DNA from: Erigeron canadensis
Lineage: Eukaryota; Streptophyta; Magnoliopsida; Asterales; Asteraceae
Assembly: GCF_010389155.1 (NCBI RefSeq)
Contig: NC_057768.1
Coordinates: forward strand, 5,826,501 to 5,890,500
Direction: 5' to 3'
Length of the DNA: 64,000 nucleotides
Shown: positions 7,340 to 58,742 of the stretch, piece by piece
How positions within the stretch are numbered: position 1 is the first letter of the stretch
Layout of the letters: each line of letters starts with the position of its first letter
Notes under the pieces: model-generated
Database searches by the model: none
Told to the model about the DNA's origin: nothing
Seen by the model: only the letters and a program-made list of their open reading frames with translations
Position numbers and translations under genes: made by a program

Positions 7340-8390
7340 AAACCTGTTGGATGGTCATGAAGTCATAGTATAGATTCAGTGTGGTGAACATATATAATTC
7401 GAAATCTAGCGACAAATATTTAGAGATTGAAGCCAATGACCCACTAACAGGTAACTAAATTTGAGGTGGTTCAGTTGGATTAGAACCAATGTCTCTGATC
7501 ACAGAAAAAATGTCATCATGTACTGATTCTTTGAGTATATATAGAAATACTAAAAGGTATTCTAATTTCTATACAATAGCAGGTCAATGTGGCCCTGTCA
7601 TTCCCGAAGCCAAAACAAAGAATCACTGAATGAGAAATACCAAGCACTTGGAAGATAGTGAATGATGAAGTGAGTACATCCACTACTCGCCCCTCCGCTA
7701 GCACCGACAGTAGAGGATGATGACGATGATATATATATATAGCAAAGAAGTTATGACTAAAGCTAAACGACAGGAAAACTATGTAAGAAAATCATGCTTC
7801 TGTTCTTTTATCAAGTATATTTTTATATTTACAATAACTATAGTTTTAAATTTTAGCAACACTATAGATAAGCTATTGAATATGGAGATTTGGATTTTCC
7901 AATTATGGGAATGGTGTGTTTTGATATTGAGTGGTCCTTTTCTTTCGACCTAGTATATGACTGCTATACTTTTGTGATACGAAGCAGATGGTTGTATCGA
8001 TATAAAACTAAGATAGATAATCGATATTCGAGAGCTCGATCAGCTCTCCTAATTAATAACCAAATTAACAATATATTTCACACATAATAAAGTTACAACC
8101 CTAATATTCTATTTATACTAATCCTATAGCTTGGTTAACAAGCTAGCTAACTAAATAATTATAATAATAACTCTTTTCGAAGTGGGTATAAGTTAGCAAG
8201 CAGGAGGTTGAGTTCTTTAAGTTCTATTGAAGATGAAGGAGAAAAGAAAAAAGAAAGGAAGGGCTATGAATGTGCAGACTCTGGAAGTTAAATCCTAACA
8301 ACATATATGTTTGGACGATGAATTGGTTGCTTAAAGTTGTAAGGGAGTCTGACTTTCCTAGTCCATCCGATGAAAACTGATACAAATGCT
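7340..8390 (+). pseudogene. Degenerate tandem copy of the MSL channel gene
   Basis: Three collinear pieces resemble the intact gene upstream. At about 7352-7380 the DNA (GATGGTCATGAAGTCATAGT) matches the start of exon 1. The frame at 7717-7953 keeps KLLNMEIWIFQLWEWCVL, equivalent to the KIWRLELWKWCGL segment between the first two membrane helices. At 8309-8383 the frame VWTMNWLLKVVRES matches the SAWTMSLLIEIASKS region that precedes the end of exon 1. The order is the same as in the gene, but spacing is distorted and stops interrupt every frame. The exons after exon 1 are not visible. This looks like an old tandem duplication, now dead. Confidence 0.65.
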
Positions 8391-10227: not shown

Positions 10228-12456
10228 TTAAGTAGCTTTTCTTCGAAGAAGTATAAAGCATTCGGAAACTGTCTTTATGTTTTCTAGCGTAAGAACTGAC
10301 GATGTCACAATCCTCTTTCTTAACAAGCAAAACACCTGTTCTACAACTTCGCTTCCAAAATGTTTTTCAATAAGCCATCCCCAAGATGTTTGTAGGAACA
10401 ACATGAACATATATATGTTTGGAGGCTTATTCACAAAAGATGAAGGAGGACCCAAGCTCTGAAACTTTTCTACTGTAAAGCGATCATTTTTACGGATGAC
10501 ATCCTCTATCTCCTTTGGAGTCGCATTGTATCTTGGAAAGTTGAAGGAGTCAAGTTTCTCTTCGCTCAGCAATCCCTTCAAAAAGATGATTATAATTGAT
10601 GATTAGAAACCTCAAAAACAGTCTTTTATAAATTTTAAATGTACTGTGGTTGATTTTTCAACTTGTTTAACATATTAGTATATTTAAGTTAAATCGTTTA
10701 GAGTAGTAAACCAAAACTTCTTGTTATTGAGACCATCTACCAACGCGCGCACACACTAGAAGGGTACTTGCGCAACATGACGGCCCCGAACAAGATGATG
10801 ATTCTATTTGTTGATATACTTATTGTAGTGTTTTAGTTTGATGTCTTTTGTTAGTTTAAATATGAGAAGAAAAACAAATATGAATTATTCAAAATAAAAT
10901 AAAAGAAACCAATTAAACTGTTGAATGATATAATGAAAGATAAAAAATTAATATTCATTCTTCCATAATTTTAAAAAGTCAAAAAGTAAATTCCTAAAAT
11001 CATAAATCATTCCTCATTTATATATATTGCTCTGTAAACGGAAAATGATAAATCCTTTTAAAAATTAGCTAGCCGAAAAAATCCTTCCAAAACCACATGA
11101 TTATGACATTTGGATTCTATTGGATTTTTTTTCTAATTTTACCTCTTAATTAAACTAAATATTATCATCTGATTGTTAAGCATTTTTAAGCTAATAATTA
11201 TTACCTTCTCTGCCATGACCATGAGGCAATCGCCTAAAAGATCAACGACTTGAACAAGAGGATACTTCTTGACCTCAAAACAAGGAAGTAAAAGTGTCAT
11301 GAGACCACCCGGCACGAGCTCTTCAGCCCTAGCATTCAAGAACACTTCCATATCTCTAGCAAATTGCTTTGCATAAACTTGAACTACTTCATTACATGAA
11401 TCCGTGTAAAAGATCTTCCCTTTATTAAACGCTGGTGATTTCTTATCAATCAACTCGTTAGGAATGCTTGATAGCCAATGAAGAGCATAAGACGAGTTCA
11501 CAAAATGAAGTGTGCCCTTTGGAAACAACCGGCCGTGGATAGAACCAGGTACCCCGGCTGCAAAATATTCCCGGTTTGGTGGTAGTGACTTGAAGAGTGT
11601 ATCAAAACAATTACGTACGTGGTCATTGAAGAATACTTGAAACTGAACCTTGTCTTGTTTGTTTTGGGGTATTTTTCTTTTCATTGACTCCACAATGTTT
11701 TTAACTACCATGAATCCAACTGAATTTCCCAAGTCTGCAATGTTGAGTGAGTTTGAAGTAGCAAGAAACCGATTTACGTCTAGCTTATCCATGATCGCGT
11801 CATTGATCAAGGACATTGCCGCATATCCTCCCACATGCTGCAAATGAATGATTTTCACTTGATAAAATTGAAGAAACAATAGTATGGTGGGCCTTAAATT
11901 GTTCAAAGATAATATAAAACTTCTCTATTAATTGGGATGAGATTTCTTCAAGTTACCCTTGACTACTTGACATTTGATTTAAAATCAAGTTTGGAGATTA
12001 AATGATCATTTTATAATGTTAACCCTTGATTTTAATTTAAGAGTTAAGAGAATTGTTCTAACTTGACCCCTCAAGTTATTCCATCCTAATTGGGACCGGT
12101 TAATTAGGGTAGATCGGTAGGAAACCTTTGATTTCATGTACCATATTCGTATCTATGAAACTCTGATGTAGAGTTTTTTTGCATTAATGGTGTTAGTTTT
12201 TATATTGTTTTGACTTTGTGAGTTTGATCTTAAATATTTTTGTATGTATTAATATAATATATGAAGGCTTGAGTTTTTACATGTATATATCTTCATTGGC
12301 ATTGATTTTAATAACTATTATATAACACATAAGAAAAATAAATTAAGATCAATGTTGAAAAAAATGGGCATTTCAATTGTGAGGGAGTCATAATAATTAA
12401 ATTTAATAGCTTACCCGAGTCAATACGAAGGGCCCATCGTTTGCAAGAACTTCCAT
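10228..12456 (-). CDS. SABATH-family SAM-dependent carboxyl methyltransferase (3 exons)
   Basis: SABATH enzymes transfer a methyl group from S-adenosylmethionine to a carboxyl group (or ring nitrogen) of small molecules such as salicylate, jasmonate, loganate, farnesoate or gibberellins. Exons on the minus strand are 12456-12415 (14 codons, MEVLANDGPFVLTR), 11837-11205 and 10575-10228. All junctions are in phase and give 340 residues, slightly short for the family (about 350-390). SAM-site motif: IADLGNSVG. Then come FNDHVRNCFDTLF, PPNREYFAAGVPGSIHGRLF and LHFVNSSYALHWLSSIP, all diagnostic. Late motifs include EELVPGGLMTLLL and the C-terminal FGSEVVEQVF. Oddities: the usual N-terminal substrate motif (SYxxNS) is not apparent, and the usual Cys and Pro-Asn-Thr around DLGCSVGPNT are changed to DLGNSVGFMV. 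This may alter cofactor or substrate binding. The substrate cannot be predicted. Confidence 0.9.
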
Positions 12457-17210: not shown

Positions 17211-17470
17211 AATAATTATCTATCTAATATATAACAAAAATCAATAGTGGCGGTGGGTGTATGCGGCCCGAATTCTCAAGAATTAAAACGGAGAAAAAAA
17301 TTAGTACGTGAAACCTAGAATGTTAGCTCGATTGTCATCTTAAGTTATAATTCTCTATTTTATTTTGTTGTTAAGAACTAGAGTTCATAATGTAGAAACC
17401 GGAGGTTTTGAGTTAGATGATTTATATAATATTAATGAACTGAGAAAATTAATCTTGCAAAATGACACAA

Positions 17471-17757
17471 TGTAAACTATGCTAAAATGTGTATTGAACC
17501 TTTAAGTAAAATGGGAAAGTAGGTATTTAGAGAGAAATTAGGTATTAGAACAATGAAAGATTAATTGGACAAAAGGTTAACTTTTTATTACATGTGGGGG
17601 TTTATATAGCCACATAATTTGCAATTAAACCCCCTATATAATTACAAACAAGTGCATGACTAATTACATGATAAACCCTTCATCAAATCTTAATAAACAT
17701 TAAGGACAAGACAAATGTTAATATACAAAACACGCACTACAAAATATAAAGCTAACA
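17471..17757 (-). repeat. 3' LTR of the Sirevirus-type element
   Basis: This is the 287-bp long terminal repeat next to the polypurine tract, so it is the 3' LTR in element sense. On the minus strand a candidate promoter, GGCTATATAAACCCCC, lies near its middle (17601-17616). The match to the other LTR is about 96%. Confidence 0.92.
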
Positions 17758-17770
17758 ATCTCCCCCTTAG
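17758..17770 (-). other. Polypurine tract
   Basis: On the minus strand CTAAGGGGGAGAT immediately precedes the 3' LTR. A purine tract at this position primes plus-strand DNA synthesis in LTR retroelements. The second, truncated element at 58.7 kb has a similar tract, AAATGGGGAGAT, before its LTR. Confidence 0.85.
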
Positions 17771-17787
17771 TGCTGTTTTGTAAATGA

Positions 17788-20700
17788 TCATTGGTGAGCT
17801 CTCTTCTTTTTCCTTTGACGTCTATTTCTTTTCTTTGTGGATGATTCAGGTTTGTCTTGAGAGGCAACCTGAGATTTGAACACACGTTTCTCATATTTAT
17901 GTTTTGATTCTTTCCAGAACTTCTTTGGCACAAAATGATACTTTGGATCCTCAGGGCGGTTAGGTGGCTCGATAATGTTGTCAGCAAAGTTAACGGGAGG
18001 CATGTTATGAATTCCTTGCTCGTTGTTTGGTGAATATCTGACCCAGGTGCCTTCTGGAACGTGAATGACCCCTTTTTGTTCTTTTGGAAGTCTGGCTGCT
18101 AAGATTCGTCTTGATCTTTCTCTGTGATCCAGCCTTGATTTGATCTTTTGAATAACCTTGGTCATCCTTCCTTTTTCCTTCTCAGTTTCTTCAAACTCAT
18201 GAAGGCTTTCAAACATGGTTAAACATAGCTTCAATGTTCCATCAGAATACTTGGCAAGTTCGTCTAATCTTATGAAAATCTTATGACCTTGATCGCTTTC
18301 AAAAACAAAACCTCTTGGGTTGTCAAACACTGCACAATTGCTGAAATTTTCTAAATTGATGCCATGGATTCTCTGATTTGGTATGGTGAGGTTGACTTTC
18401 TTCCTTCTCTTTTCAATGGCCAGTTGGAAGTCTTTTTGAGTTTGGCTAAGAATAAGACTATCCATGTATCTTTTAACTACATAATAGGCCTCTTGATTTT
18501 CAGGATCAGGCTGAATAAGTTTTCGAGCAAAGTAATGAAGAAGGAAGATAAAATCATCTGCAGAAAGATAGTTGAAGCGAGCTTCCCCAAACATATATTG
18601 ATGATTATCCTCACGTAGAACCACTAACCAGATCAGGCCAGGAGGTCTTGCAAATCCAGGATCTCGCCATTCTTTGAAGTGAATTCCCACAACATCGACA
18701 ATCTTTAATCCAAACTGCTTCTTCCATTCTTTATTAGCTTTGATGTTTTTGGCAGTGACAAGATCTTTCAAATACTTTGCCCTATGAAGCTCTACATCAT
18801 ATGCTCTACGAGCCCTTAATTCGTCAATGTCGATCTTTTTCAGTTCTTCTTTTTCGGAGAAAATCTGTGAGGCTTTTTCCTCAAGAAACTTTGTCAATTT
18901 GAACAAATGAGGATGGAGGGAAAGATAATTGACTCTACTTCTTTGATTTGCTTGGAAACCTCCTTCATTGATTTGAATGGGTCGAATTCTGGTGTGATCT
19001 TGAAATTGAGGATGATTAAGGTGGTGAATAAGTTGACGAAGGTTTAATTGGTTAAGGGATGGATTGGGTTGAGGAACAGTTGGATAGTTATCAAAGCCAG
19101 GTGGTGGAAGATCATCATTGTCAGAAGAATCCATTTCATCATTTGGATCAACGTCATTGCCCCCAACTTCAAATGTGTCATCATCTTGGATTTCATTGTT
19201 AACATCTTCAACAATCACAAAGGGATCAATATTGAGTTCTCGAGATATAGCATCATCCCTATCAGCTGAGCCAAGTATAACTTCTGTATTAGCACTTGCT
19301 CCGATCACAGAATCAACAACATTAATTACTTCAGTGATCTCTATATCCATTTGTTTATCATTAGGAGCATCTCTAGATTGAGCTTCATCTCCAACAACTT
19401 CGTTGCTTCCAATAACATCTGTTTCAGCACTAACCCTTACTTCAGTCGTCGCATCTCCTCTGTTCTCCCCCTCGTGTTGATCCTGATCATCAGGGTCATC
19501 ACGCCTACGATGGACGACTGCAGCTGTTTTGCAAGACTCTTCTAATTCAGCAATTTGTTTCATTGCTGCCTCAAGTTGAACGTCAGCAAGAAGCTTTTCT
19601 TGTTTGGCTTGTTGATTTAGAAGCAAGAGTTGATGTTGATGGTCGAAGCGAGCTTGGAAAGTTGCAAGGATGGCTTTATCAAATGGATCGGCGTGATTGT
19701 CAAGAGAGATAAGAGCGACATATAAATCACCATACATGGTGTTGATATTGGAGTGAAGAGATTGAATATGTTGAGGAGAGGAGTGTTGAGGAGAACGGCT
19801 GTGATGAGATGAGGATGCGGGAGGTGACGAGTGTAGTGGAGATGGTTGAGGATTTGTGTGAGGGAGAAGTCCAGCAGCTTCAAGATCTTTAAATAGTTGT
19901 CATTCTTCTGGATTAGCTTTAAGCCTAATGCCATCTGGATTTGGAGGAGGGCTAGAAGTTGAAGAGGATGATGGAGATGTGACAGGGGCTTTTCCTTTAT
20001 TAATAGGAGAACGGAGCACTGCGGTTGGTGGCGGTTGAGTTGAAAGAGCAGGAGCGGCCGACATAGATGTCGTTTGCACACATGTAGGCTCCGTAGGGTT
20101 TACAGTGTGGCCTGAATGGTGTTGGCCACCAGGACTTCCCAATGATTTATGAAGCAATTGCTCTACATTGGTTGTTTCAGAACTAGTTGGCTCAAGACAA
20201 GTGTCGGGCTCAATGTTCCGGATGGTGGGACTTCCGGGTTCTCCAAGATTGCCCGTTGTACAGGGAATTGTATCCCCAGCGCCTGTCATATTATCATGAG
20301 CAAGACTTCCAGACACTCCTTGAGAAGGTGGAATCACCGACTCTCGGTCTGTTGATGCAACATCCAAAGGATGTGCGTGCTCAGACACATGTGACCTAGG
20401 CGATCTAGACTCAATTGTGTGAGAAAATGAAAGTGGGAGAGAGGCAAGAGTCTCCGCTGCTACAATATCGACATCCTCCGAGTGAGGAATTGATAGTGGA
20501 CGTGGTTGGTGCCTGTGCAAAAATGAAACTGGATCCTGTAAAGAGAATCCAGAGTGGCGAGTAGGTGAAACATGCGAGGGTGGGAAATCCTCGGCTTCTA
20601 TCCTACTGGTGTCATCCCGGCTAGTTGTTTGAACTATCGGAGGGCCATCATTTTCTTTTTGCCCTATTCTTAGCCCTGACCTCTCATCCTCTCCAGTATG

Positions 20701-22035
20701 TTTTTCAACCCCTCCCTCAGGACCACCTTGTACCTCCGGAATATCAAACACATTATCACAAAAAGGAATTTCATTGTTAATATCGTTGTGATCAGAGGAA
20801 GAGCGTTCATCATGTGATTCCTCAGGAATTTGTTGAAGAGAAGTTCTTATAACGGTAGTAGAAGAAGGAGAAGGTGATGAAATAGGATCGGAAGAAGAGG
20901 ATGAAGGAGTGAGAGGAGAAGGAACAGAGAATGTTGATGAAGTTGTTTTTGATTTTGATTTTGATTTGGATTTTGAGTGATGACGAGTTTTGCGTTTCTT
21001 TTGTGTAGGTGCTGAAGATTGAGGAATTTCGATAGAAGAAGAAGTAGGAACAGATAAGCCAGGTGCAAAATCATCAACTAACCCCTCTTTTCTTTTTCGA
21101 CACCTAAAACCCTCACTTGGTGACCTATGCAAGCGTGGGGAAGGCACACCTCGGTTTTGAGTAGCCATACGCTCGGCTAAATACGCTCTGTAAATCCTGA
21201 GATCAGGATTATCTATGGGCACCTGGCTGAGCAGAGATTCAGAAATTGGCATGAAATTGATGTGAGCAATGCGATTGTTTGTATATACATGACGAAAGCT
21301 GGAGATAACTACACGTCTTGAAGCAGGAAAACGTTTGATATTGCTGTGATTGTTGACAAAATGCTGCATAATGACAGACAAGAAACGGATAAACGCGATA
21401 TATTTCTTGTTAGAAGTGTGTTTACCGTTAACTTGGAGTCGAAGATGATCAAAAACAATGGCAGCAAAATCAAGATAGACATCGAACGCGATTCCAAAGA
21501 GATATGTTAGAGTGGCCTTGGTGAAGTCATCTTGACCTTTTCTTGATGGTGACAAGCAGTTGTTGATGATGGAACAGAGAGTATGCCACATCGGATGAAA
21601 ATCCTTCTTTTTAATGTCTCTTAAAGCTGAGAAGTCATCATCGTAACCCAACTCGTGTACTCGATGTATCATCTCAGGAGTTGGTGGAGTTTCAACAAAG
21701 CTCGATTCTCCCGGTCTTGAATCAGCAGCTGGAAAGCGAAGAATTGTTTGGAAATCATCCAGATTGAATGTAAATTGCTGTGAAGTACCATCTGTTGTTT
21801 GAAGGGAGAACCAGAAGAATGGACGAGCTCTTCCTCTTGTAGGAACATACTCCATTGTCCGCCACATTTGATATAATAATTCTTCTTCAATGCCTTCAGT
21901 CGTGATAGTGAAGATATTGATCAATGGATGATATGTGAGCATAACTGGAATAATACCGAATGGACAGGTAAACGGTATCATAAGACGAAGGTTATTCGTC
22001 ATTTGTTCTGTGGCTCCATCTTTAAGAAACTCCAT
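17788..22035 (-). pseudogene. Large extra ORF 3' of pol, split by one in-frame TGA
   Basis: A single reading frame runs from the ATG at 22035 to 17788, about 1,415 codons, with one interruption (TGA at 19902-19900, followed by CAACTA). The frame is open further upstream but without ATG. The N-terminal ~330 residues look globular (QFTFNLDDFQTILRFP, MWHTLCSIINNCLS, TLTYLFGIAFDVYLDFAAIVFDHL), loosely like plant transposon-associated domains seen in Asteraceae proteins. Then follow ~400 residues rich in Ser, Pro and His, including a KSKSKSKSKTT run. After the TGA come a coiled-coil start, an acidic region (residues with DDPDDQDQ and DSSDNDDLPP), a conserved globular part (GTWVRYSPNNE, PPVNFADNIIEPPNRPEDPK) and a very basic tail (KKRNRRQRKKKRAHQ). 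There is no signal peptide or membrane span, so despite its env-like position it does not look like an envelope protein. Function unknown. A diverged second copy of the C-terminal half lies at 56966-58706. Confidence 0.75.
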
Positions 22036-22099
22036 CCTAAAATTAACAAGTAGACGAATGGGAAATATCGTTTCCAAGGTTAGAAAAGATTGATTATAC

Positions 22100-22410
22100 A
22101 CTGATTTTCGCAAAAGATGTAAAGGTAGTACAACAAGGCGTTCAATACCTCACGTCTTATGGAAAATCAATGTACAATTATGAAAAACAGATTTTATTAA
22201 AAGAACTAGTCATACACCTTGTTTCACAGAAGATGCAAAAGACAGTATATCAAGGCGTTCAATGTCTTGCTTCTAAAGGAAACCCGATGTATGAAAAGTA
22301 GAACAAGGGTTTAAAAAAAATGATCATTATGTGTTCACGAAAGATGTAAAGGTAGTACATCAAGGCGTTCAATACCTTACTTCTTAAGGAAAACAGATTG
22401 ATAATCAAGA
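22100..22410 (-). repeat. Three tandem units of about 113 bp before the extra ORF
   Basis: On the plus strand GATGTAAAGGTAGTACAACA (22116), GATGCAAAAGACAGTATATC (22232) and GATGTAAAGGTAGTACATCA (22343) each lead into CAAGGCGTTCAAT. In element sense the array spans the region just 5' of the extra ORF ATG. Confidence 0.8.
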
Positions 22411-22684
22411 AAGTGAAGGTACAAAAGGAGAGTTGGCAACAAGAGTGTCTGTGGACCCAAGAGATTTTATGATCATCAAATTGTTCATAAATAGAATTAT
22501 TTGAGGTCACAATTTTGTGGAGAGAAAAAAAAAATTTTGAGTTATTGGTGGAAGGAAAAAAATTCGATGAATATATGGAAAAATGATTTTAAATGTGACA
22601 AAAACTAGTGAGTTTTGGTTGAAAATTGAAAGATCATAAAAAAAAAGGGCAGAGTGACTTTTCATAAAATTGTGAATTTAAGAA

Positions 22685-23260
22685 TGCATACCGGTGTTTT
22701 GATTTCCGGTATGTTGCAAAGCATCAAGATATCAAGTCGAAACTAGATATCGATGCACTTGCGAAATCTAATTAAAGCAAGATAAGCACATATAATCATG
22801 CAGATAATAAAATAAGTATGCAGAGCAAAACGAACATCACATAAGAAACACATAAGACAATTAATCATTGAGAAAAGAAAATGAAAATAGAAGAAATAAG
22901 ATACCCGAATACGTAAAATAAGATGATAGACAATAATGAATCACGTAAACGAGAAATAATCACCCCTGAAAGATAAAACACAAATACACAAAAAACCGGT
23001 ATTAATGCGTTTGAAAAATAGGAAACCGGTATTAATGCATTGAAAAATAGGAAACCGGTATTAAAACATTGAAAAATGAGGAAAACCGGTATAAGTAAAT
23101 GGAAAAACCTGCATGCCGGTTTTGAAGAATAGAAGAACTAATACCGGGTTTCTTTCCTGTGGTTTATAGGTTATAATGTCGGGTTTCTTTTCAGAGGAAC
23201 TAAAATCGGGATTTGGTTTGAGAAAGCCGGTTTTGACTGAGAGAATTCCGGTTTTTGATA
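22685..23260 (-). repeat. ACCGGT-rich repeat region in the pol-to-extra-ORF spacer
   Basis: The motif ACCGGTATTAATGC and close variants recur in tandem near 22995-23100 with spacers of GAAAAATAGGAAA type. Further ACCGG, GCCGGTTTT and TTCCGGTTTT motifs follow to 23255. The same palindromic core ACCGGT recurs in the 5' leader (28824-29470), so both non-coding regions of the element share a motif. Confidence 0.8.
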
Positions 23261-23638
23261 AGGTTAAGAATACTTAGAAAATTTTTGCGAAAGGGTCAAA
23301 AGACTTCGTTTTTTTTTTTTTTTAGAAAAGATTTATATATGGAAAAGTTTGGAAAAAATGGAAAAGATACGAAAGATTTGAAAAAAAAAAAAATTTGGAA
23401 AAGATGGGAAAAGTTTAGAAAACTTTTGGGTAACACATAATCAGAAGAAGAGCATAGATAAATACAAACTCCCCCTAGGAACATGCATACAGATAAACTG
23501 ATAAAAATCGACTTACTCCCCCCAGAAGCATGCAATCTACCCTTGTTCTCCCACTCAAATATTGCATGTATAAGTACGGAAACATACATCAATTGTTTGA
23601 AAAAGAAAATAAACATAGATAGCATGACAAGATGGCAA

Positions 23639-25074
23639 TTAAGCTTGAAGATCGAGCATACCCAACTTGGTTTTCAAAAAATTAAACCTTTGTTCATCTA
23701 AGGGTTTAGTGAAAAGATCCGCAAGTTGGTAGTCTGTAGGGACAAAGTAGAGTTCGATGTTACCTTTTTCGACGTCATCTTTTATGAAATGGTACCTTAC
23801 ATCGATATGCTTTGTCTTTGTATGCTGAACAGGATTGCAAGAAATTGCAATTGCACTTTTGGAGTCACAGTAAATCGGAATGCGCTCATACTTAAAACCA
23901 TAGTCAGAGAGTTGTGTCTTCATCCACAGAACTTGAGAACAACAACTAGCAGCAGCGACATATTCAGCTTCAGCCGTTGAGGTAGAAACACAAGTTTGTT
24001 TCTTTGAAGACCACCCAACTAACATGTCACCAAGGAATTGCACACTACCAGAAGTGCTTTTGCGGTCTAACTTACACCCTGCATGATCTGCATCTAAGAA
24101 AGCCGTTAATTCGAAACCGGTTTCTTTCGGGTACCATAAACCAAGGTTAATAGTACCCTTAAGATACCGAAATATTCGTTTAACAGCTTGAGCATGGCTG
24201 TCCATAGGGTTAGCTTGAAATCTAGCACACATACATGTTGCAAACATTATATCCGGGCGACTAGCAATTAGATATAGGAGAGATCCTATCATACTGCGAT
24301 ACAATTTCTGGTTAAACGGTTTTTCATGTAAATCAGCATGAATTTTGGTACGAACCTCCATGGGTGTCCCAATCGGTTGACAGTGAGACATATCAAACTT
24401 TTTTAGCATGTCAAGAATGTATTTATTTTGACAAATAAAAATACCATTTGACAATTGTTTGACTTGAAGACCAAGGAAAAATTTTAATTCACCCATCATA
24501 CTCATTTCGAAATGTTTAACCATTAGAGCAGCAAAGTTTTTGCAGTATGTAGGATTAGTAGACCCGAATATGATGTCGTCAACATAGATTTGGATTAACA
24601 GAATATCATTACCTTGCTTTTTAATAAACAAGGTGGTGTCAATGGTACCTTGGAGAATCCAGATTTCAGAAGATAAGTAGAGAGAGCATCATACCATGCA
24701 CGAGGGGCTTGTTTTAGACCATAGAGAGCTTTATCTAACTTGTAGACAAAAGTAGGATATTTTGGATCAACGAAGCCCTCAGGTTGCTCAACATACACTT
24801 CTTCTTTCAAGATTCCATTGAGAAAAACAGACTTGACATCCATTTGATAGACTGTAAAGTTCTTAAAAGCAGCATAGGCAAGAAAAATACGAATGGCCTC
24901 AATTCTGGCAACAGGAGCAAAAGTTTCATCGTAATCCACACCGTCTTGTTGAGAGAAACCTTTGGCTACAAGACGAGCCTTGTTACGAACAACAATACCA
25001 CCTTCATCTTTCTTGTTCTTGAAGATCCACTTTGTCTTAATTGGTTCTTTGTGAGAATGCGGATTTGGAACCAA
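23639..25074 (-). pseudogene. Copia reverse transcriptase and RNase H, frameshifted
   Basis: This region encodes the polymerase that copies element RNA into DNA and the RNase H that removes the RNA. The first frame (25074-24660) has [58 protein letters not shown] and [13 protein letters not shown] frameshift near 24650 moves into the second frame (to 23639). That frame holds the catalytic YVDDIIFGS, FFLGLQVKQ, SMIGSLLYLIASRPDI and the RNase H motifs FLDADHAGC, STAEAEYVAAASC and YCDSKSAIAI. The end HTKTKHIDVRYHFI and ADLFTKPLD is complete. Upstream the frame joins a linker without integrase sequence. The frameshift makes it inactive as written. The stop after RNase H is TAA followed by TTGCCA, not a CARYYA context. 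Confidence 0.92.
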
Positions 25075-25181
25075 TACACATTTCGTTTTTTGTTAGAAGT
25101 TTGACCGACAGGCGACACTTGTTTCTTTGGAGTGGAAGAAAACCAACCATATTGATCTTGGTATCTAGTTATTCCTACAGC

Positions 25182-28100
25182 TTAATCTCTTAAAACTTTT
25201 AAAGTGCACCTAGGTGTGGTTAGAGATTGTTTAGGGTAACCAGAAAACTTTCGATCCTTGGGTTGCTGTTGGAGTTTCATTTTAGTTTTGGGAGAGGGGT
25301 TGGTGTGGACTGTAGGAGTCTGGGGTTTGTTTTTGTTCTTGCAGCTGTCAGGCAAATTCCTTGAATTGGTAATGATTACCTTTTGTTTTGGTGTCTTCCT
25401 TGGTAATGAAGCTGCTTTCGAGGGATGTGAGGGTGGAGTCTTTTTCAAAGAAGGTTTGTTTTTCTTAAAAAATTTATTTTCAAAATCCGGATCATAAGTA
25501 TTATTTTCTTCCAAAAATTTGTTTAGATCAGGGATTTTAGAAATATTTAGATTAAAACCGTTGTTCTTTGAATCGGAATTCACAGTCACTTTAGAAACTG
25601 GAGTCTTCAGAGGACTGGAAGTCTCTTTGTATTTGTTTGATGCATTGTCATTTAGAAAAACGGGTTGGTGACTCATTAGTTCTTGAATGATTTTACAGTA
25701 TCGCTTTTCCCTTGTTTCAAACTTAATTTAAAATTCCTTTTTTATTTTTTCTAATGAGATGTTTATTGCATCAATTTCATCCAAATAGACTTGGACATTG
25801 ATTTGAGAGGTGGTCGAGTTGATGGAAGAGCATGAAGTATCAGTAGATGACTTTGACTCATGTGATAAATGTGGTGGAGTCAAATTGGACACAATTTTTG
25901 AAAATGGACCTGAGGACAGTAACTTTGTTGCCTTTTCAGTGTTGTGATCCACAAAAGCTTGAAGTATAATGTTTTTATACTCCATTTCCATCTTAAGTTT
26001 ATTGAGTTCAGTGAGCAAATTCAGTCTTTGATTTCTTTCAAATTTATATTGTTTGGAAAGAGAGTTAAACTCGTTACAATACGAGTCAGTTTCCTCAGAA
26101 AACTTGATTGGCTCAGTATCAAAGAGATTTGGAAAAATGTGTTCAATTTTATCCACCGACATTTGTTCATCATAATCTTCATCATACACACAATCAATGT
26201 TAGAAACAAAATCATCTTCAGTTTGGGTAGCAACAGAATTGGTCTTAATGGAATCCCAGTTGGGTTGCACAGAAACATCTTGAATGTCACACGCTTCATC
26301 ATTTAAGGAGCAATTGTTGGGATTTACAATGACACACACTGGTTGGCTAAGATCAGTACAGTCATAAACAACACTGGATGAGCTATTGGGGACAGATTTG
26401 TTATGGTGATTTTGAGACAAAATAACATTTATCACATCTTGTTTTTCAGTTATAGTTTGTTTCAAATCTTCTATTTGTTTTTCCAAAACACTTTGTGGAA
26501 TATATGGTCGAACTGGAGCTGGTTTTGGATGAATGATTTCTTTTTCAAGTTTGGGCTCACTTGTATGACCAACAGATTGTTTTTCAGTTGAATCTGCACT
26601 TGAGTTTTCATCCAGTTCAACTATAGTAGCAGAGTGTTTTTTAGGTTTAGGACAAAGTGGAAGATTAAACAAATCATAAGAATCATTGATTTGATCATAG
26701 TTAATTTTGATTTCACATTTGGATAACTGTTCTTCTGTATCAAAATCATCATAACTGGGTCGAATAAATTGACTTAGCAAACCATATCGCATCATGATTT
26801 CATCATACATGGGTGGTACAATTAGTTGACCCGTGAGTAAGTTCTTGGGATCTTCAAATCCTAACCCTTTGGTGAAATCATCAAAATCTCTTGGTTTGTT
26901 TAAAAAGATTTGCTTGTTGGATTGATCAATTCTATAAACCTTAACTTTATAAAACTTGATTTCATCAGTGAATTCATCAATTTTATTTTCAAGTTTTTGG
27001 TTCTGAGAATCTTTGATGCAACATGCATGATTTAAATCAGAAATTTGATTTTGTAATTCTTTCACAAAAGGGTTGGAAATGTTGAACTTAGACTGAAGGG
27101 CTTCAAGATCTTCGGCCAAAGCATTTGCTCTAAACATTTCATTTGACTGAGCAATTTTTAATTCTTTGATGGTTTTGTTTAGTTCAAATACTTTGAGCTC
27201 AAGTTCTTGATTAGCAAGATGTAATTCAGAAGAAGCAGTAAAAGAAACCGATGCATTACTAGTTGAAAGATCTTTAAAGTCCTTTTGAAGGATTTGAAAT
27301 TTGTTTTGAAAATCAGTTAAAGAGTTTTCTTTTTCTTGTAAAGCATTGGTTAAGTTTGCTACTTCTCCTTTTAGAGATGTATTTGTGAGAGCAGTTTGTT
27401 CACATTCATGCAATAATTGTTCTAAAGCAAGTTACGGAAATTCGCATACCTCATCGTCATCAGTTTCCGATTTGTTACCTTTATCACTCAGCTCATTGGA
27501 ACGCTTGATCTTAGTCATGAAGCACACATTTGCAGCAAGTTCTTCAGTTTCTTCATCAGAGAGATGTAGTCATTTATCATCTTCAGCAAGAAGAGCAACA
27601 CCACTTTCTTGTTGCTTCACTAACATGAGTTTGTTTTGATAGTATGTGGAGTTCTTCTGACGAGGCTTGGTACAATTGATTGCTAAATGACCAGTTTGAC
27701 CACAGTTGTAGCATTTCCTTTCTTCAGGTTTTCTTTCAGCAACTTTCTTCTCAAGTGACCTTGGAGATTCAAACTTCTTTTCACCAGTTGTGCTTCTCGG
27801 ATAATGATCAAATTTGGGAGCTTGGTTGTTCTTGACATAAGATGAAACAGAAGATGTTCGAAGTTGATTATTGGTCGGTCTCCTTGTCATATACTTTTTC
27901 TTGAAGGATCGAGTAAAATATGCAAGATCTCTGCACATCTCCTTTTCTTTATCATCCATGTCAGATTCGATGAGGTCATTATCACCAAGATTAGAAAAGG
28001 TGTTTTCATCATTGGAGTTCATAGAGAGATGTGACATTCTGTTGGCCACAAGAGCAAGAGGATTAGTGGATGAACTTTCTTGAAATTTTGCTTGTTGTTT

Positions 28101-28802
28101 CAGAATAGCTTTTTCATTCAATCTCAACTTCTCATAGAGATTGTGAATGTTAAGCTTGTTGAAGTCTGGTTGAACATTTATCTGTGTGCCATAAGGTTCC
28201 CAGACTTCTTCCAAGCATCAGATAAACTTCACATTGAGCTCAATCTCAGTTTTGTTCACCTTTTCTTTTCTTAAATCATTGATCACATTGCAGAAACGAT
28301 CATATGTTTTCACTAATGGTTCCCCCTTCTCCTGTTTGAAGGTCTCATATTGATCAATTAAAAAAGAGAGTTGAATGGTTGTTGAGATTTCTGACCCTTG
28401 AAACTGTTTTTCAAGTTCGTCCCAAATTTCTTTCCCAGTGGTATAAGAATCAACGTTTCAATATATCTCATTAGGAAGAGCAAAGTACAGATAGGTAACA
28501 GCAAGATCATCTGCTTGGGATCGGTTTCTCTGTGTGGTATTTCAACTCTCGGGTGGTAGAAGTTTTTTAGTTACAGGATTTCTGTGAACAGCCAGTCCTT
28601 TTTTGAGAGATGTCTTTACATCAGCAGCATTAGGTTGTTTAGCAACCCAATTCAGAAAACGATTTCTCCATTGGGGATAGCAGTCATGATAGAGGACAGG
28701 TGGGTGAGTTTCAGAACCTATGATTAAAGAATCTTGAAAAGCCATTACACAGTGTGAGGAACTGGTATTCAAGCTGAAAATTGAGCAGCGTAACTTTTCC
28801 AC
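25182..28802 (-). pseudogene. Gag polyprotein with CCHC knuckle and long coiled-coil extension
   Basis: One frame (minus strand) runs from the ATG at 28802 to 25182, interrupted only by in-frame stops near 28542, 28460, 28216, 27570, 27432 and 25728. The N-terminal part (HPPVLYHDCYPQWRNRFLNW) and the middle (GKEIWDELEKQFQG, FKQEKGEPLVKTYDRF) match copia Gag (UBN2 type). The zinc knuckle CYNCGQTGHLAINC sits near 27710-27670. From 27413 to about 26950 the protein is heptad-rich (LTNALQEKENSLTDFQNKFQ and similar), a coiled coil, followed by acidic and Ser-rich segments and a basic linker up to 25182. Several stops are TGA where TGG or CGA is likely ancestral, which suggests decay by cytosine methylation and deamination. 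No DTG protease or HHCC/DDE integrase motif follows. Confidence 0.85.
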
Positions 28803-28823
28803 TAAATTGATGAAAAGAGCACT

Positions 28824-29339
28824 AATACTGGTTTTGGTGTAAACCAGGTATTACAACATACAACCACACAGCAAAGCACAACAGAAACCGATTTTTCAGA
28901 AACGGAAGAACTAATACCAGTATTCGTATGTAGGAATACCAGTTTTTAGGAAAGAAATTGAACAGAGTTTTGATTAAGAAAAATGATTAATGGAGGAACT
29001 AATACCGGTTTTGGAGTAAACCAGGTATTAATACATTCAAAACACAACTTAAACCAACAATCCTTTACTAAAACCGGTAATCAGTAATAAGGGTACTAAT
29101 ACCGGTTTTCTTCGAAAAATTTGAAGATTATAACAGCTTGAAATTTAACTATTAGAAGAACAAATACCGGTTTTGGGGTAAACCAGGTATTATAACATTC
29201 AAACTATGAATAAAGTACTAATACCGGTATTCTGAAAGTAACAGAAAACCGGTATTGAGAAATTAAATTAAGATTAGTTAGAGTTTTAATAATCTATAAA
29301 TGGGAGAACAAATACCGGTTTTGGTATAAACCAGGTATT
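28824..29339 (-). repeat. Four near-identical 29-nt hairpins in the 5' leader
   Basis: Copies lie at 28824-28852, 29001-29029, 29163-29191 and 29311-29339. On the plus strand each is AATACCGGTTTTGG (first copy AATACTGG), two variable bases, then TAAACCAGGTATT. The arms pair as AATACC with GGTATT and GGTTT with AAACC, leaving one bulged base and a 6-nt loop. Spacing is 148-177 bp. Additional single ACCGGT or AAACCGGTAT motifs lie between them. They lie between the primer-binding site and the gag start, where packaging or translation signals of retroelement RNAs are usually located. Confidence 0.85.
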
Positions 29340-29694
29340 TTTATTGAAATTAAAAGTTCTTGAGACAAGTAAAACCGGTATGGAAACCCAATTTTAGTAT
29401 GTTCAAAGCCAATCAGAAACTCGGTATTAGAACTGTGATAGAAAACCGTGATTGAATCCCGGTTTTTGAAACAGAAACCTAAAAATTTGATTTCAAGACA
29501 TTGTGATTAGAGATAGGAATAGATACTTTATGGGTGATATCTTGGGATGATAAGGAGTGAATAAACACAAGAAATTCGATTACTTTAACATGGTAAAGGG
29601 AAAAAGATTGAAAATTTCGGAATGGGAGTAAAAACACAAGTTAGCACAAGGATGAACAAAATCAAGCTATGGATCTCTCACACGTTGTGATTTT

Positions 29695-29706
29695 GCTCTG
29701 ATACAA
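29695..29706 (-). other. Primer-binding site (initiator tRNA-Met type)
   Basis: On the minus strand the sequence just inside the 5' LTR reads TGTATCAGAGC. This is one base short of the TGGTATCAGAGC complementary to the 3' end of initiator tRNA-Met used by plant copia elements. Confidence 0.8.
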
Positions 29707-29708
29707 AG

Positions 29709-29995
29709 TGTAAACTATGCTAAAATGTGTATTGAACCTTTAAGTGAAATGGGAAAGTAGGTATTTAGAGAGAAAGTAGGTATTAGAACAATGAAAGATT
29801 AATTGGACAAAAGGTTAACTTTTCATTATATGTGGGGGTTTATATAGCCACATAATTTGCAATTAAACCCCATATATAATTACAAACAAGTACATGGCTA
29901 ATTACATGATAAACCCTTCACCAAATCTTAATAAACATAAAGGACAAAACAAATGTTAATATACAAAATACGCACTACAAAATATAAAGCTAACA
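29709..29995 (-). repeat. 5' LTR of the Sirevirus-type element
   Basis: This is the 287-bp partner of the LTR at 17471-17757, next to the primer-binding site and therefore the 5' LTR. It drives transcription toward lower coordinates. The TATATAAACCCC element is on the minus strand at about 29839-29850. Confidence 0.92.
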
Positions 29996-30534
29996 CACGA
30001 TTATAGATTGTTTTGGTAATAAAAGTTCTTACGTTTATTTTTTATTTTTTTGTAGTTTATGATAGTGAATTTTATAGGTTAGTAATCCCAAGAACTTTTA
30101 GTCTCGATGCTTCAGCTTCACCCTATTTGTCCTTAAACCAATCGTTTCGGTATATTGTTAGCGTGGTACCGTGGTTGATTTTTGGTCAAATATAATTGTG
30201 TTGTTTTAAGAAAGTGGTTGATATTTATATTCACAATAGTTGTTTTGTATTTGTTGGAGAGTTTATAAGTGGTCGCTCAAATAACTTTGTAGTTGGAAAC
30301 AATAAGACGCGTGTATGAGACATTAGCCCATTTGGTCGCTTCATTGGTATATTAAGTGTGAAATGAGTTTGATATGTTTCATATGTTATGACTTATGTTA
30401 ACAAAATTTATAAGTTAGGGTAATAAATTTTGGGCTACTAAAAATGATTAGAAATGTTGAATGTAAAAAAGGAAATGTGATGGCAGGCCCATAAACTTAG
30501 GACCCTTAGCCGTAAATTTCTGGCCTATGTAACA

Positions 30535-34195: not shown

Positions 34196-34550
34196 ACATA
34201 TATCACAGGGACTCTGTAACGTACTCTGAACATAAATTACGATAGTTTAAATATTGAGTCGTAAATTATGATGACTAGCGTCTAGCCATAAACTTATAGC
34301 CAGTTTAAAATAAAACAAATAATTTTAATCAGGATTAAAAATCATTCCTTAAAAAAATTAGGACACATTAACATCAATATATGTGTTATAGATCTTGATC
34401 TCGGATCAATCTCTCTTGTTACAATAATCAACATAAAACATACTAATAGATAGATGAATGAGAAGAAGAGATGTCAGAGACGGCACATAATAAAAAAGAA
34501 GATGATCTAGAGCAATATATTAGTGTAATAATTTAGGTTACAAAGATTAG
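34196..34550. repeat. Duplicated segment, copy 1 (partner 37742-38090)
   Basis: About 350 bp match the partner in the same orientation, sharing ATTATGATGACTAGCGTCTA, CATAAACTTATAGCCA, ATCAATATATGTGTTATAGA and GAAGATGATC at roughly 88% identity by eye. Neither copy has coding potential. The partner sits inside a Helitron-rich block. Confidence 0.85.
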
Positions 34551-36310: not shown

Positions 36311-36646
36311 ATTTCCAAATATATGAACAATGTCAATAGACAACTGAATTTTAGTTTGTATGTTTCTTGTTTTGTTTTTATATTGCAAATACATTAAAAT
36401 TATGAATAATAGATTTGTTTAGACAAATCAAATTAATTAAAAAATATATCTTATGTAGCATCATTTGTTAAAGTTAAGATTTCCAAATATATGAACAATG
36501 TCAATAGACAACTGAATTTTAGTTTGTATGTTTCTTGTTTTGTTTTTATATTGCAAATACATTAAAATTATGAATAATAGATTTGTTTAGACAAATCAAA
36601 TTAATTAAAAAATATATTTTATGTAGCATCATTTGTTAAAGTTAAG
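36311..36646. repeat. 168-bp direct tandem duplication
   Basis: Copies 36311-36478 and 36479-36646 both begin ATTTCCAAATATATGAACAA. I see only one or two differences. The array abuts a Helitron-like element that starts at 36659. Confidence 0.95.
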
Positions 36647-37079: not shown

Positions 37080-38110
37080 TCTTACTATATATTACAAAAC
37101 AGTTGAACTAATAACTTATCAACTAGTTAAATTGTTCAATTTCTTAAAATTGACTATCGCTGATGTTATCATTTAATTTAACTATAAATTAAAAATTTTA
37201 ATTATCATTATCCAAATATACTATTATATTAGTATTTATATTAATGTTTGTAAAAAAAGTCTCATTAATTTATATTTTTTTTATTTTTCATCAGTAATTA
37301 CACTTTTTACTTTTGAATACTTAATTTATATTTATTTTTAGTCATTAAAGCTTATTAGAGTCAAAACCAGAGGATTTTTCTAAAATATTTAATTTATAAA
37401 AAACTTCAACATATGAAATATTGTTTACAAAAAATTATTAAAAAAAATGAAATACAATATATGTGTTCAATGTTTAAGTAATCAAAGAATATGAAACAAT
37501 TTTATGTTATCTAATTATCACAAGACAGGTGATTGAAAATAAACCTTTTTGTGTTATGAACACGTATCATCATCAAAAACATATATTTGAATATTGTCAA
37601 GTTCGAGATTATAAGTATGTTTATATATATTTTACTGTAATTCTTAATTATTTTTCATAATCATATCACATTATAAATACAACTGGTTTCAAATAATTCT
37701 ATACTAAAATGTAACTTGTGGAATGACTAATTAGCCTTAAAATATATCACTGGGACTTTGAAATTCTGAACGTAAATTACAATAGTTAAAATATTGAGTC
37801 GTAAATTATGATGACTAGCGTCTAGCCATAAACTTATAGCCACTTTAAAATAAAGATAATAATTTTAGTCAAGACTAAAAAAGTAAAAATCATTCCTTGA
37901 AAAAATTAGGACACATCAACATCAATATATGTGTTATAGATATTGATCTCAGATGAATCTCTATTTTTACAATAATCAACATAAAACATAATAGATAGAT
38001 AAATGAGAAGAACTAGAGATGTCAAAAACAACATATAATAAAGAGGAAGATGATCAAAAAGAATATATTAGAGTAATAATTTAGGTGACCCTAAACATAG
38101 ATTATATATA
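37080..38110 (+). mobile_element. Helitron-family element A, 5' part (3' end not resolved)
   Basis: Starts after A with TCTTACTATATATTAC and continues ACAGTTGAACTAATAA. This start and the following ~400 bp (AAAAAGTCTCATTAATTTA, TTATATTTATTTTTAG) match element B at 38552-39412, so both are one non-autonomous family. From 37742 the sequence is the duplicated segment shared with 34196-34550, so A has been interrupted or recombined. Confidence 0.55.
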
Positions 38111-46103: not shown

Positions 46104-48775
46104 ATGGAAATGGCAGGGGAAAGGAAGCAGAAATCCGAAAGATGGGCAGATTTTAGTACTGAGGTAAAGAAGGTTAGTGTAATCGCGGTACCAATGGTGG
46201 TGGTAGCAGTGTTGCAGTATATGATGCAAATGGTAGCGGTCGTGATGGTTGGCCATGTTGATCAACTATCTTTGTCTAGTGTCGCCATTGCAACCTCCCT
46301 CACCAATGTCACTGGTTTCAGCCTTCTTGTAAGTTCACTCTATCAGTAAACTTGTACACGAAATAAGGAGACTATTTTGATCACAAGTTGTTTGTATACT
46401 TAGGGGTTATTTGGTTTTTACAATGTATTAGAATTTGGTTAAATGGAATTTAGAATTTCTAATGTTAAGCTAACTAGACAACGAAGAAATTACAAATTCC
46501 ATTACACCAAATTTCTCTACATTCTACGAATCAAACGGGCCTTAATTAGTTTATAATGCCACTTAATCTCAAATTCATTATTTATGATGCATATTTGATC
46601 TAAATGTATATGTCCCAAATATATAGTCAACTTTTATATCATACAGGTATTAAGGCTTGTATATATGTGTAATCATTCGATGAAAATGTATCTTGGAAAC
46701 ATACAAGTCCATATTTGATACATGCAAAATGCATCTTTAAATAGATGCATGAAATGAAATGTGATTTTGAAGAATTAATACATTAAAATACTAAACAATA
46801 TTTCATTTGTGATGCTAATATGTGAATATGTTGATTTTGTGGATTTCTAATGCTCAATCTAAATTTTTTAAACATTTGCACTTTATCATCAAGTAACAAA
46901 ACATTATTCTTGGAAATTGGAATACAACTGTTGATTAATATCAATAGTCAGGACTTGTGGGAGGCTTGGAGACCCTTTGTGGGCAAGCATTTGGAGCCAA
47001 GCAACATGACAAAATTGGAATCTACACTTGCAGTGCAATTATCTCATTGCTATTGGTCTGTATCCCAGTTTCTATCTCCTGGATTTTTCTAGACAAATTT
47101 CTAATCTTAATAGGCCAAGATCCAATGATCTCACTTGAAGCCCGAAAATATTCTGTTTATCTCATTCCAGCTCTGTTTGGAGGGGCAATAACTAAGCCTC
47201 TGGTGAGATCACTTCAATCCCAGAGCTTGACTATGCCGTTGCTATTGAGCTCTATGCTTGTTTTATGTTTCCATGTCCCTCTTTGTTGGGCATTCGTGTT
47301 CAAGTTTAAGATGGGAAGCGTCGGTGCTGCAATAGCGTTTAGTTTGTCAAACTGGTTTTACCTGCTACTGATGGTGGCTTATGTTAGATTCTCGACAATG
47401 TGTGAGGATACCCGTGTGACTATCTCCATTGAAGCACTGTTTGTCATCAAAGAATTCTTTCAGTTTGCAGTCCCGTCAGCTGTAATGGTTTGGTAAGCTC
47501 TGTATACCTTCATACATATGGGTGGTTTGGCAGGGGTTTTTTGAGGGCTTTTTGGGAACTGGGGCTTAAGGTTATAAAAAAAAGCTCCTCTTGGTAAAAA
47601 ATATTGTTTGGTTAAAGAAGGCTTGGAGATTATATTATTTTTTCAAAGAAAGCCCCAATCGGCATGTTATGTTATTCTTCTGGATTTGCTTTCTTATGAA
47701 AATGTACATACTTGTTAGTCTCAAATGGTGGGCACTAGAAGTACTTATCTTGGTCTCAGGATTATTACCAAATCCAAAGCTTGAAACCTCAGTTCTTTCG
47801 ATATGGTATACTTTCATTGCTTCTGTTATTCATGGCTAATTCCTAATTACAATCATAACGATAATTTAACGAATAATCTTTATTTGCAAATGATTTTATT
47901 CAATCAGCCTAACTATCTCAACGTTACACTTCACCATACAATATGGCTTTGGAGCAGCTGCAAGGTAACTTTCCAGAACAACAAACACAATTAAACTTCA
48001 TTAGTTTCCATTTATCTGTTGTTATTAAAGAAACTGATGATATATCCAATCACATAGCACCCGAGTTTCAAATGAATTAGGTGCTGGGAACCCAAAAGCA
48101 GCCCGGCTAGCCGTTTACACCACTATTTTTCTAGCCATCACCGAAGCCATAATAGTTAGCGCAGCAGTTTTCAGTTGTCGCAGTTTTCTTGGAAACGCTT
48201 ACAGCAACGAAATGGCAGTTGTGAATTATGTTGCATCAATGGCTCCTTTTATATCCCTCTCTCTCATTACAGATAGCCTACAAGCAGTGATTTCAGGTTA
48301 GTATGTGTCCATCTCTTTCTGACATATATAGACCTTGGGTGATGTTAAAAAATATGGACTAAAATTTTCATGTTCGTGTTTTAGGAATCGCTAGGGGAAG
48401 TGGATGGCAACATATTGGAGCTTATGTGAATCTTGTAGCGTTTTACGTATTTGGGATCCCAGTAGCCGTTGTATTGGGGTTCCCTTTACATTTGAAAGCA
48501 AAGGGACTTTGGATTGGGATTATGGTAGGATCCATAATCCAGTCAACGAGTCTGTCACTGATAACAGGAGTCACTGACTGGCAAAAACAGGTCTGGTTAT
48601 TGTGCTGTATTCCTTCATTCGCTAATATTGTTATCTATGTTTGTCTAACGAGTGTCTTAAAATGTTTTCTTTGCAGGCAATGAAGGCTAAAGAGCGAATT
48701 TCAAAAATTACATTGCTAGTATATAACAATAACAAAGGCAATGATGTAGACATTAGGGAATATGAATGTGCATAG
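46104..48775 (+). CDS. DTX: MATE efflux transporter, DETOXIFICATION (DTX) family (7 exons)
   Basis: Plant MATE proteins export or sequester small organic compounds using a proton gradient, at the plasma membrane or tonoplast. Exons read 46104-46328, 46948-47492, 47719-47805, 47908-47964, 48058-48296, 48385-48590 and 48677-48775. The phases are consistent throughout and give 485 residues, the standard size. Conserved blocks: [20 protein letters not shown] (helix 1) with [44 protein letters not shown], the [20 protein letters not shown] stretch, [29 protein letters not shown] and [18 protein letters not shown]. The C-terminus is short and hydrophilic. It resembles the DTX clade around Arabidopsis DTX14/DTX16 (from memory of motifs). 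Substrate unknown. Intron 1 contains a Harbinger-like MITE. No stop or frameshift seen. Confidence 0.94.
46403..46541. mobile_element. PIF/Harbinger-like MITE in MATE intron 1
   Basis: 139 bp flanked by TTA on both sides (46400-46402 and 46542-46544). The left end GGGGTTATTTGG and the complement of the right end, GGCCCGTTTGATTCG, are roughly inverted, and both arms contain AGAATTTGG/CCAAATTTCT. Confidence 0.7.
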
Positions 48776-55868: not shown

Positions 55869-56744
55869 TAAAAATCCCCCTAATACCCTAACTACTTCAC
55901 AAATATTTCACTAATTTTTTCTCCAAATCTCATTCTTTCACTTTGACAATTGTTACAATTTTATAATTAAGAGGTTTTTTAGACTATTTAGTTAGGATAA
56001 TCATTAATTACATCGAGTCTATACATCCACTTTGTGTTACAATAGTTATTTTGTTAATCGATATCCATCACATCTTTAGATATAAAATAAAAACCACCTG
56101 TTAAGAAGCCATGGGTCTACCCTTGTAAAAAGAGAAATAATATTGAAATATCAAGATGTGACTACTCTTAATTACGTACGAACTCTTTTGTCTAATCTTA
56201 CATGAAAATTCAATGGAGATGATTGAAGCATTGATTTTGTGGAATTTAAAGTTTATGTCGCTAATGTATTCCAACTGTTACTTAATCTTTGGTTCGTTTT
56301 AAATAAAGTTTCTACACATGCACACAAAGTTTAAAAATAACTGATTGATCTAACACAAGTGGGAGAAGAAGCATGCTTGGCTATAAAGGAGAAGAAACCC
56401 TATACACATATCCCTTATCATCATCGACATCAAACAATATTCCAATCTCATCACCACTCTAGTTGTCAATCCCCCCATGTTTCCACTCTCATTATACACT
56501 TTCTCTTTCTCCTATCTTCCTAGAATCGTTTTAACAATATAATCTAACGAATCCAATCTTGAAAAACAGCAAAAATATCTAGAAAACGAATTTTACTATT
56601 TGTAACATTTAAATATATTGAAATAACACACAGTAAAATATCATAAATAAAATTAGACTATTGTTAAATGCAGTCTAAACTATACTTAACGTGTTTAAAA
56701 AAATTTACATTGTTCTGGATTTTATAATAAGTATATAACTATTT
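55869..56744. other. Intergenic region with an orphan TATA-like motif
   Basis: GGCTATAAAGGAG at 56378-56390 is followed by a leader-like pyrimidine-rich sequence to about 56525. No coding region follows in any frame and I recognise no conserved microRNA. Confidence 0.3.
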
Positions 56745-56965
56745 AATAAACTTTAAAGGGTTGGCTTAGCAATACCCATAAAAATTACCGACTTTTAAAA
56801 TTAGTTATCAAATGTTAATTGTTACGTAATATAGTTTCATCTTCCTTATTGCCTTATTGGCAAAATCTTATTATGTGCCTTATTTACAAAATCTTATCGG
56901 TGAATACGAAAGTATTATCTTCCGGCAATATTGACCATTATATGGGAATGTGGGCAAGATGGTTG
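56745..56965. repeat. Local duplication, copy A (empty site)
   Basis: Collinear with 59811-59945, 60209-60242 and 61453-61487. Shared blocks are TAATAAACTTTAAA, GTTACGTAATATA, TATTGGCAAAATCTTATTA, CGAAAGTATTATCTTC and CATTATATGGGAATGTGGGC. Copy A lacks the MITE and Helitron insertions of copy B. At its right edge it joins the retroelement fragment. Confidence 0.85.
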
Positions 56966-58706: not shown

Positions 58707-58730
58707 AAAGACTACATTCAAAACAACACT

Positions 58731-58742
58731 AAATGGGGAGAT
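58731..58742 (+). other. Polypurine tract of the truncated element
   Basis: AAATGGGGAGAT directly precedes the LTR start TGTTAG, the same arrangement as in the full element. Confidence 0.8.

Follow-up and report, generated by a model that had tools for sequence, protein, structure and literature searches.

The extra open reading frames (ORFs) found at the 3' end of SIRE retrotransposons have long been termed envelope-like, largely on account of their position, and the question is what such a frame encodes. It is raised here by a 64,000-nucleotide stretch of Erigeron canadensis DNA (NCBI RefSeq assembly GCF_010389155.1, contig NC_057768.1, positions 5,826,501 to 5,890,500; the whole stretch is called the window below), in which a minus-strand Ty1/copia element with long terminal repeats (LTRs) spans 12.5 kb at 17471-29995 and carries an extra ORF of 1,414 sense codons at 17788-22035. 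This frame has relatives elsewhere in the Asteraceae, and its C-terminal domain (C-domain) is under purifying selection. We posit, at a probability of about 0.5, that it is a sense extra ORF of a SIRE-like element and would encode a nuclear accessory protein.

The extra ORF encoded a single protein

An ORF scan places the extra ORF on the minus strand in a single frame with one internal stop. It is a sense-strand frame separate from the polyprotein, situated past pol and ahead of the 3' LTR and reaching the polypurine tract (PPT), as in the definition of the class termed eORF-3'F. The frame is free of stops from 22149 to 17788 save for the in-frame stop at 19900-19902, which leaves open stretches of 749 and 703 codons from stop to stop, or pieces of 711 and 703 codons when counted from the first ATG (22035). 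Each of the five remaining frames of this stretch contains 46 to 144 stops, and when the stretch was simulated 500 times with a first-order Markov model, the longest ORF in any of the six frames reached 217 codons, compared with 749 observed. An earlier interpretation made from the letters of the window alone (the sequence-only reading) had described an additional ORF of about 1,400 codons situated 3' of RNase H. The long frame is real and does lie between pol and the 3' LTR, but the in-frame stop had been missed, and the frame begins approximately 1.5 kb past the pol stop rather than directly after it.

Both pieces separately retrieved the same Erigeron canadensis protein, P0001 (819 residues; E 1.6e-215 with the N-terminal piece and 1.6e-125 with the C-terminal piece), with 367 of 445 aligned residues (82%) and 254 of 358 (71%) identical, respectively. 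P0001 reaches from the end of the N-terminal part through the linker and acidic region into the start of the C-domain, with 41-54 identities per block of 57-60 aligned residues between residues 322 and 681, and is continuous across the site of the 19900-19902 stop. Since it spans both pieces unbroken, the two were originally one protein and the stop is read as decay of the present copy. A second Erigeron canadensis protein, P0002, shares the linker (210/363 identical). P0001 and P0002 are gene models with a start or an end inside the window frame, and their names, 'mucin-5AC-like' and 'flocculation protein FLO11-like', are probably due to Ser/Pro-rich composition and uninformative on function.

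Relatives and selection on the C-terminal domain

The conserved C-domain (323 residues; 17923-18891, minus strand) has at least 58 relatives at E <= 0.01, all named Tanacetum (P0003-P0060), which have this domain in common with the window frame, at 22-37% identity over approximately residues 61-260 of the domain. Protein searches scored the 7,983-7,998 candidates sharing the most words with the query (7,992 for the C-domain) and having 0.55-1.75 times its length; because of these limits the spread among plants is a minimum estimate, and the absence of other genera means little. When 36 of the Tanacetum relatives were aligned with the two copies present in the window, 10 columns were invariant. 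These 36, picked by eye from the 58 hits, formed the alignment used for folding, with the other 22 hits and P0001 left out. The C-domain of the window matched no Pfam family at E <= 0.1, and no description of it came up in the open-access literature listings searched; extra ORFs at such a position are already known, whereas the protein family defined by the C-domain is, so far as searched, unnamed.

Some of the Tanacetum gene models are fused to other retroelement pieces. Among 10 relatives scanned against Pfam, P0024 carries a copia reverse transcriptase (RT) piece above the cut-off, and P0058 (RVT_1) and P0040 (SH3_11) carry retroelement pieces below it, while P0053 appears by eye to be joined to a gypsy-like integrase. 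These joins may stem from gene modelling or nesting rather than from a real gypsy context.

A second copy of the C-terminal half lies on the plus strand at 57001-58742, with its own PPT-like site (58733-58740) and a 3' LTR starting at 58743. Outside the ORF its match to the first element is confined to 59 bp at 80% identity (the PPT and the first ~35 LTR bases), and it thus derives from another element. The sequence-only reading had pointed to conservation of the C-terminal region in a second element at 57-58.7 kb; the conservation is upheld, but the copy is a truncated and frameshifted 3' fragment that holds the C half only and sits between duplicated flanks.

Comparison of the C-domain between the window copy of the extra ORF and that at 57.6-58.5 kb (277 codons) gave 0.206 nonsynonymous differences per site (pN) and 0.795 synonymous differences per site (pS), with 72, 50 and 145 differences at the first, second and third codon positions. 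The bootstrap upper 95% limit of the ratio of nonsynonymous to synonymous divergence (omega) was 0.119, counting infinite synonymous divergence (dS) as 0, and two of eight sliding windows had finite omega values (0.13 and 0.17); as dS is saturated, omega is only bounded. Any neutral decay that the two copies underwent after insertion would push the pN/pS ratio up. The C-domain is therefore under purifying selection, as the comparison of copies suggested by the sequence-only reading was meant to reveal, though in one pair rather than in many copies. The measurement applies to the C-domain, the N-terminal part and linker having no second DNA copy in the window.

The second copy has an in-frame 96-bp tandem duplication within its C-domain (57787-57978, 97% identical). 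It is bracketed by a duplicated unrelated sequence at 56743-56965 and 59814-61487, the right-hand copy of which includes an insert (~59950-60210) and a tandem array (~60280-61264) with units of 79-103 bp and longer.

Architecture of the encoded protein

The predicted protein of approximately 1,400 residues would comprise a PF20167-like N-terminal domain, a Ser/Pro-rich linker containing a cluster that resembles a nuclear localisation signal (NLS), an acidic region, a helix-rich C-domain and a basic tail. All coordinates in this section refer to the minus strand. Within the N-terminal region (21103-22035), a stretch at ~21397-21705 resembles Pfam PF20167 (Transposase_32; 21.7 bits, E 2e-4), which suggests a distant relation only. 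The linker (19903-21135), delimited by composition and by alignment to P0001, has 17% Ser and 12% Pro among 441 residues, and the NLS-like basic cluster KKRKTRHHSKSKSKSK (20953-21000) is present with identical letters in P0001. A reading of the sequence places the motif RRRDD, followed by the acidic region, at 19000-19509. RRRDD also occurs in the 57-kb copy, an RRR-plus-acidic cluster lies upstream of the C-domain in 14 of the 58 Tanacetum relatives, and a KRRR cluster is found in 29 of 59 proteins with a C-domain match. The basic tail (17791-17949) has a net charge of +15 over residues 651-700 of the C-terminal piece. Linker, acidic region and tail are all as the sequence-only reading had described them.

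An AlphaFold model of the C-domain built from 38 sequences shows a long N-terminal helix, two strand/helix groups and a low-confidence end (mean predicted local distance difference test score 69.4, predicted template modelling score 0.44). Modelling the N-terminal part without an alignment yielded no usable model. No strong membrane helix was found by Kyte-Doolittle hydropathy, no dedicated predictor having been used, and each of the two pieces has two N-glycosylation-type sites.

A nuclear accessory role and its alternatives

The nuclear accessory role is suggested by the basic cluster and basic tail, the acidic and Ser/Pro-rich linkers, the selected C-domain and the nuclear prediction reported for a 3' ORF of Athila elements. 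The extra ORF would be expressed from a separate, probably spliced, mRNA, with the TTTTAGG before the first ATG (TTTTAG directly before GATGG) resembling a splice acceptor. Its product would enter the nucleus and assist the element there as an accessory factor, and its basic segments could contact nucleic acid or chromatin. The benefit to the element might be that its cDNA is helped to reach or stay at chromatin, or that the element is shielded from silencing. A more specific version of this proposal, possible yet doubtful, holds that the protein has two modules in nuclear service: a PF20167-like N module common to the 3' ORFs of SIRE (copia) and Athila (gypsy) elements, and a C module representing an unnamed Asteraceae-wide family strongly selected for that service.

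Two sets of observations weigh against the proposed role, one relating to the protein and the other to its carrier. The PF20167 match falls below the curated cut-off of 45 bits, and no basic tail was seen in the 31 Tanacetum alignment rows viewed, many of which end before it. Basic clusters occur in 46 of 51 Tanacetum members compared with 36.1 expected by chance, short motifs of this kind being frequent by chance; the nuclear import, chromatin tethering or RNA binding envisaged by the sequence-only reading fits the NLS-like clusters, but at a frequency near chance. A Foldseek search with the C-domain model, the structural check which that reading had proposed alongside AlphaFold, found nothing at E <= 0.001 in either PDB or BFVD. 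Purifying selection on the C-domain is measured from a single pair of copies with saturated dS. The N-terminal part has two hydrophobic stretches, at residues 16-44 (Kyte-Doolittle values up to 1.57) and 176-195 (up to 1.68), close to the usual membrane-helix threshold of ~1.6.

The carrier is assigned by motifs rather than by an RT tree, and the motifs are mixed. The Sirevirus primer binding site (PBS) 9-mer TATCAGAGC, as defined in the accessible part of PMC2829016, is present, as are the PPT octamer AGGGGGAG at 17767-17760, 10 bp upstream of the 3' LTR, and the AT/TG attachment site. An inverted repeat flanks the terminal PPT, its arms being ACAAAACAGCACTA ahead of the PPT and TAGTGCGTGTTTTGT within the LTR, which differ by one single-base indel, and the same layout recurs in the 57-kb copy. 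By contrast, the spacer between LTR and PBS has the expected length of 5 nucleotides but reads CTTTG, as opposed to the ATTGG of Sireviruses, of which six elements have G at the second position (PMC2829016, accessible part). Of the three sense copies of the PPT octamer (23476, 19472 and 17767), one is near the LTR, whereas Sirevirus octamers cluster towards the 3' LTR, 83% of them within 0.5 kb (same source, accessible part). The motif CGG-N(0-4)-CCG has a single match in the element, at 20060 within the extra ORF, and none in the LTRs, and the LTR length of 287 bp is below the genus range of 0.54-1.68 kb in the table rows available from PMC2829016. Of the large gag with central CCHC motif and downstream coiled coil, gag and CCHC were found, and the coiled coil as a weak Pfam match only. 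The Sirevirus affiliation asserted by the sequence-only reading thus stands for the PBS, PPT, attachment site and PPT inverted repeat and fails for the spacer, PPT cluster, CGG-CCG motif and LTR length, and because of this mixture we use the term SIRE-like for the putative placement of this Ty1/copia element.

Other functions for the protein were weighed against the same evidence. An envelope-like or membrane protein of SIRE1 type, diverged past recognition and functioning at membranes or in spread between cells, would suit the position of the frame, which matches that of the env-like gene of Sireviruses (accessible parts of PMC7264820 and PMC2829016), and the two N-terminal hydrophobic stretches could be taken in its favour. 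Both stretches are borderline and contain Pro, His or Asp, and 19.7% of 1,000 shuffles of the N-terminal part equal or exceed the observed maximum hydropathy. The low number of N-glycosylation-type sites, the NLS-like clusters and the basic tail also point elsewhere, and we consider an envelope-like protein unlikely. The sequence-only reading had rejected an envelope and reported neither signal peptide nor membrane helix; this holds in that neither a strong helix nor a relation to any known envelope was found, and is weakened by the borderline stretches. Improbable too is an anti-silencing protein or RNA-silencing suppressor, even though such roles of accessory ORFs are known or proposed in Vandal, 5'aORFs of Tekay elements have been likened to DRBM proteins (PMC11728184, accessible part) and purifying selection on the C-domain counts in its favour. 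The searches made revealed no known suppressor related in sequence, and this alternative overlaps the nuclear accessory role and is inseparable from it here.

The helix-rich C-domain model and the basic segments would also be compatible with a structural, gag-like second particle protein serving as a capsid or nucleocapsid helper, which we regard as quite unlikely, given that a gag with a zinc knuckle is already encoded in the element and that the extra ORF gave no gag-type Pfam match. Very improbable is a recently captured piece of a host gene without function for the element. The lack of a Pfam family for the C-domain would be compatible with capture, but the domain occurs in two differing elements of the window, in two Erigeron proteins and in 58 Tanacetum proteins. 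This bears out the sequence-only reading, which had not taken the frame for a host exon limited to two elements. The names of these relatives reflect composition, 'hypothetical protein' or a retroelement, none being a characterised host gene, and the copies are under purifying selection. Simulated neutral drift to the same protein divergence introduced a mean of 8.2 stops (range 0-17 in 200 runs, at least one of which had none, as capture would allow) versus the one observed, which is weak evidence because all change was placed on one lineage and the P0001 gene model is stop-free by construction.

With its domain structure, its C-domain selection and no strong membrane feature, the family offers a concrete object for the question of nuclear accessory proteins in SIRE elements. 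Dozens of predicted Asteraceae proteins, either unnamed or named after their composition, contain the C-domain, and recognising it would improve their annotation.

The carrier element

The element is delimited by a 5' LTR at 29709-29995 and a 3' LTR at 17471-17757 (each 287 bp, identified by comparison of the repeats), flanked by CACGA at 29996-30000 and CACAA at 17466-17470, a target-site duplication matching at 4/5 positions. The LTRs differ at 11 of 287 positions (Kimura two-parameter distance 0.0395), which gives an estimated insertion age of 1.5 million years at 1.3e-8 substitutions per site and year, or 2.8 million years at 7e-9. In the sense direction, all features being on the minus strand, the 5' LTR is followed by the PBS (29695-29703, 5 nucleotides past the LTR), a gag fragment (28221-28457; PF14223 Retrotran_gag_2, E 1.1e-9), a gag fragment with a CCHC zinc knuckle (27573-28217; PF00098, E 1.5e-7) and a coiled-coil-like frame of 567 codons from stop to stop (25731-27431; weak match to Rod_CreS, E 0.006 and 0.043). 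The N-terminal part of RT (24598-25092; PF07727, E 1.1e-48) and its C-terminal part (23639-24688; PF07727, E 2.4e-21) come next; the latter frame also contains what we take, from position and motifs, to be the RNase H region, and ends at the pol stop codon (23639-23641). Then follow 1.5 kb of sequence, the extra ORF, the terminal PPT (17760-17767, identified by motif match), the bases AT and the 3' LTR.

RT is divided between two frames, the RT frame starting at most 100 bases from the preceding frame, and a Pfam scan of 10 stop-to-stop pieces detected neither a protease nor an integrase domain. On these grounds the copy is taken as defective: it is dead, with integrase and protease not found, RT frameshifted and the extra ORF stopped. 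The missing integrase had gone unnoticed in the sequence-only reading.

Just upstream of the extra ORF, three direct repeats of ~51 nucleotides, detected by repeat comparison at 22121-22398 (minus strand), are spaced 117 and 110 nucleotides apart and have 73% and 82% identity to the reference copy. Their position is comparable to that of the repeat boxes reported 5' of Sirevirus env, and they are without the CGG-CCG core.

Other features of the window

Two direct repeats of ~220 bp at 34225-34445 and 37765-37993 (91-93% identity, ~3.54 kb apart) enclose a 168-bp tandem repeat at 36311-36646 and possibly represent a small LTR element. A minus-strand frame at 11139-11906 resembles a SABATH-type methyltransferase gene, and a plus-strand frame at 46957-47496 resembles a MATE transporter exon; both are candidate assignments.

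Comparison with known systems

The env-like protein of soybean SIRE1 occupies the same position in its element as the extra ORF described here. It has membrane helices and is reportedly read by stop codon suppression, whereas here the pol stop and the ORF are 1.5 kb apart and no strong membrane helix was found. By place and strand the window ORF is likened to the eORF-3'F of the SIRE lineage, a sense ORF that follows pol and precedes the 3' LTR. In the accessible part of the survey by Neumann et al. (PMC6317226), which distinguishes 45 groups of copia extra ORFs, sense 3' extra ORFs occur in 74% of SIRE elements and are highly heterogeneous in sequence, and their env-like function is called rather speculative. 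An extra ORF at such a position is thus not unusual, and the window ORF fits this kind.

The 3'aORF(+) of sunflower Athila elements resembles the window ORF in being a 3' extra ORF of an Asteraceae host with a PF20167-like domain and an NLS; according to the accessible part of PMC11728184, its similarity to PF20167 is partial and its predicted nuclear localisation scores 0.80. It differs in belonging to a Ty3/gypsy element and in its length of 487 residues, and the likeness, drawn from the published description, joins it to a window match to PF20167 that is itself under the cut-off.

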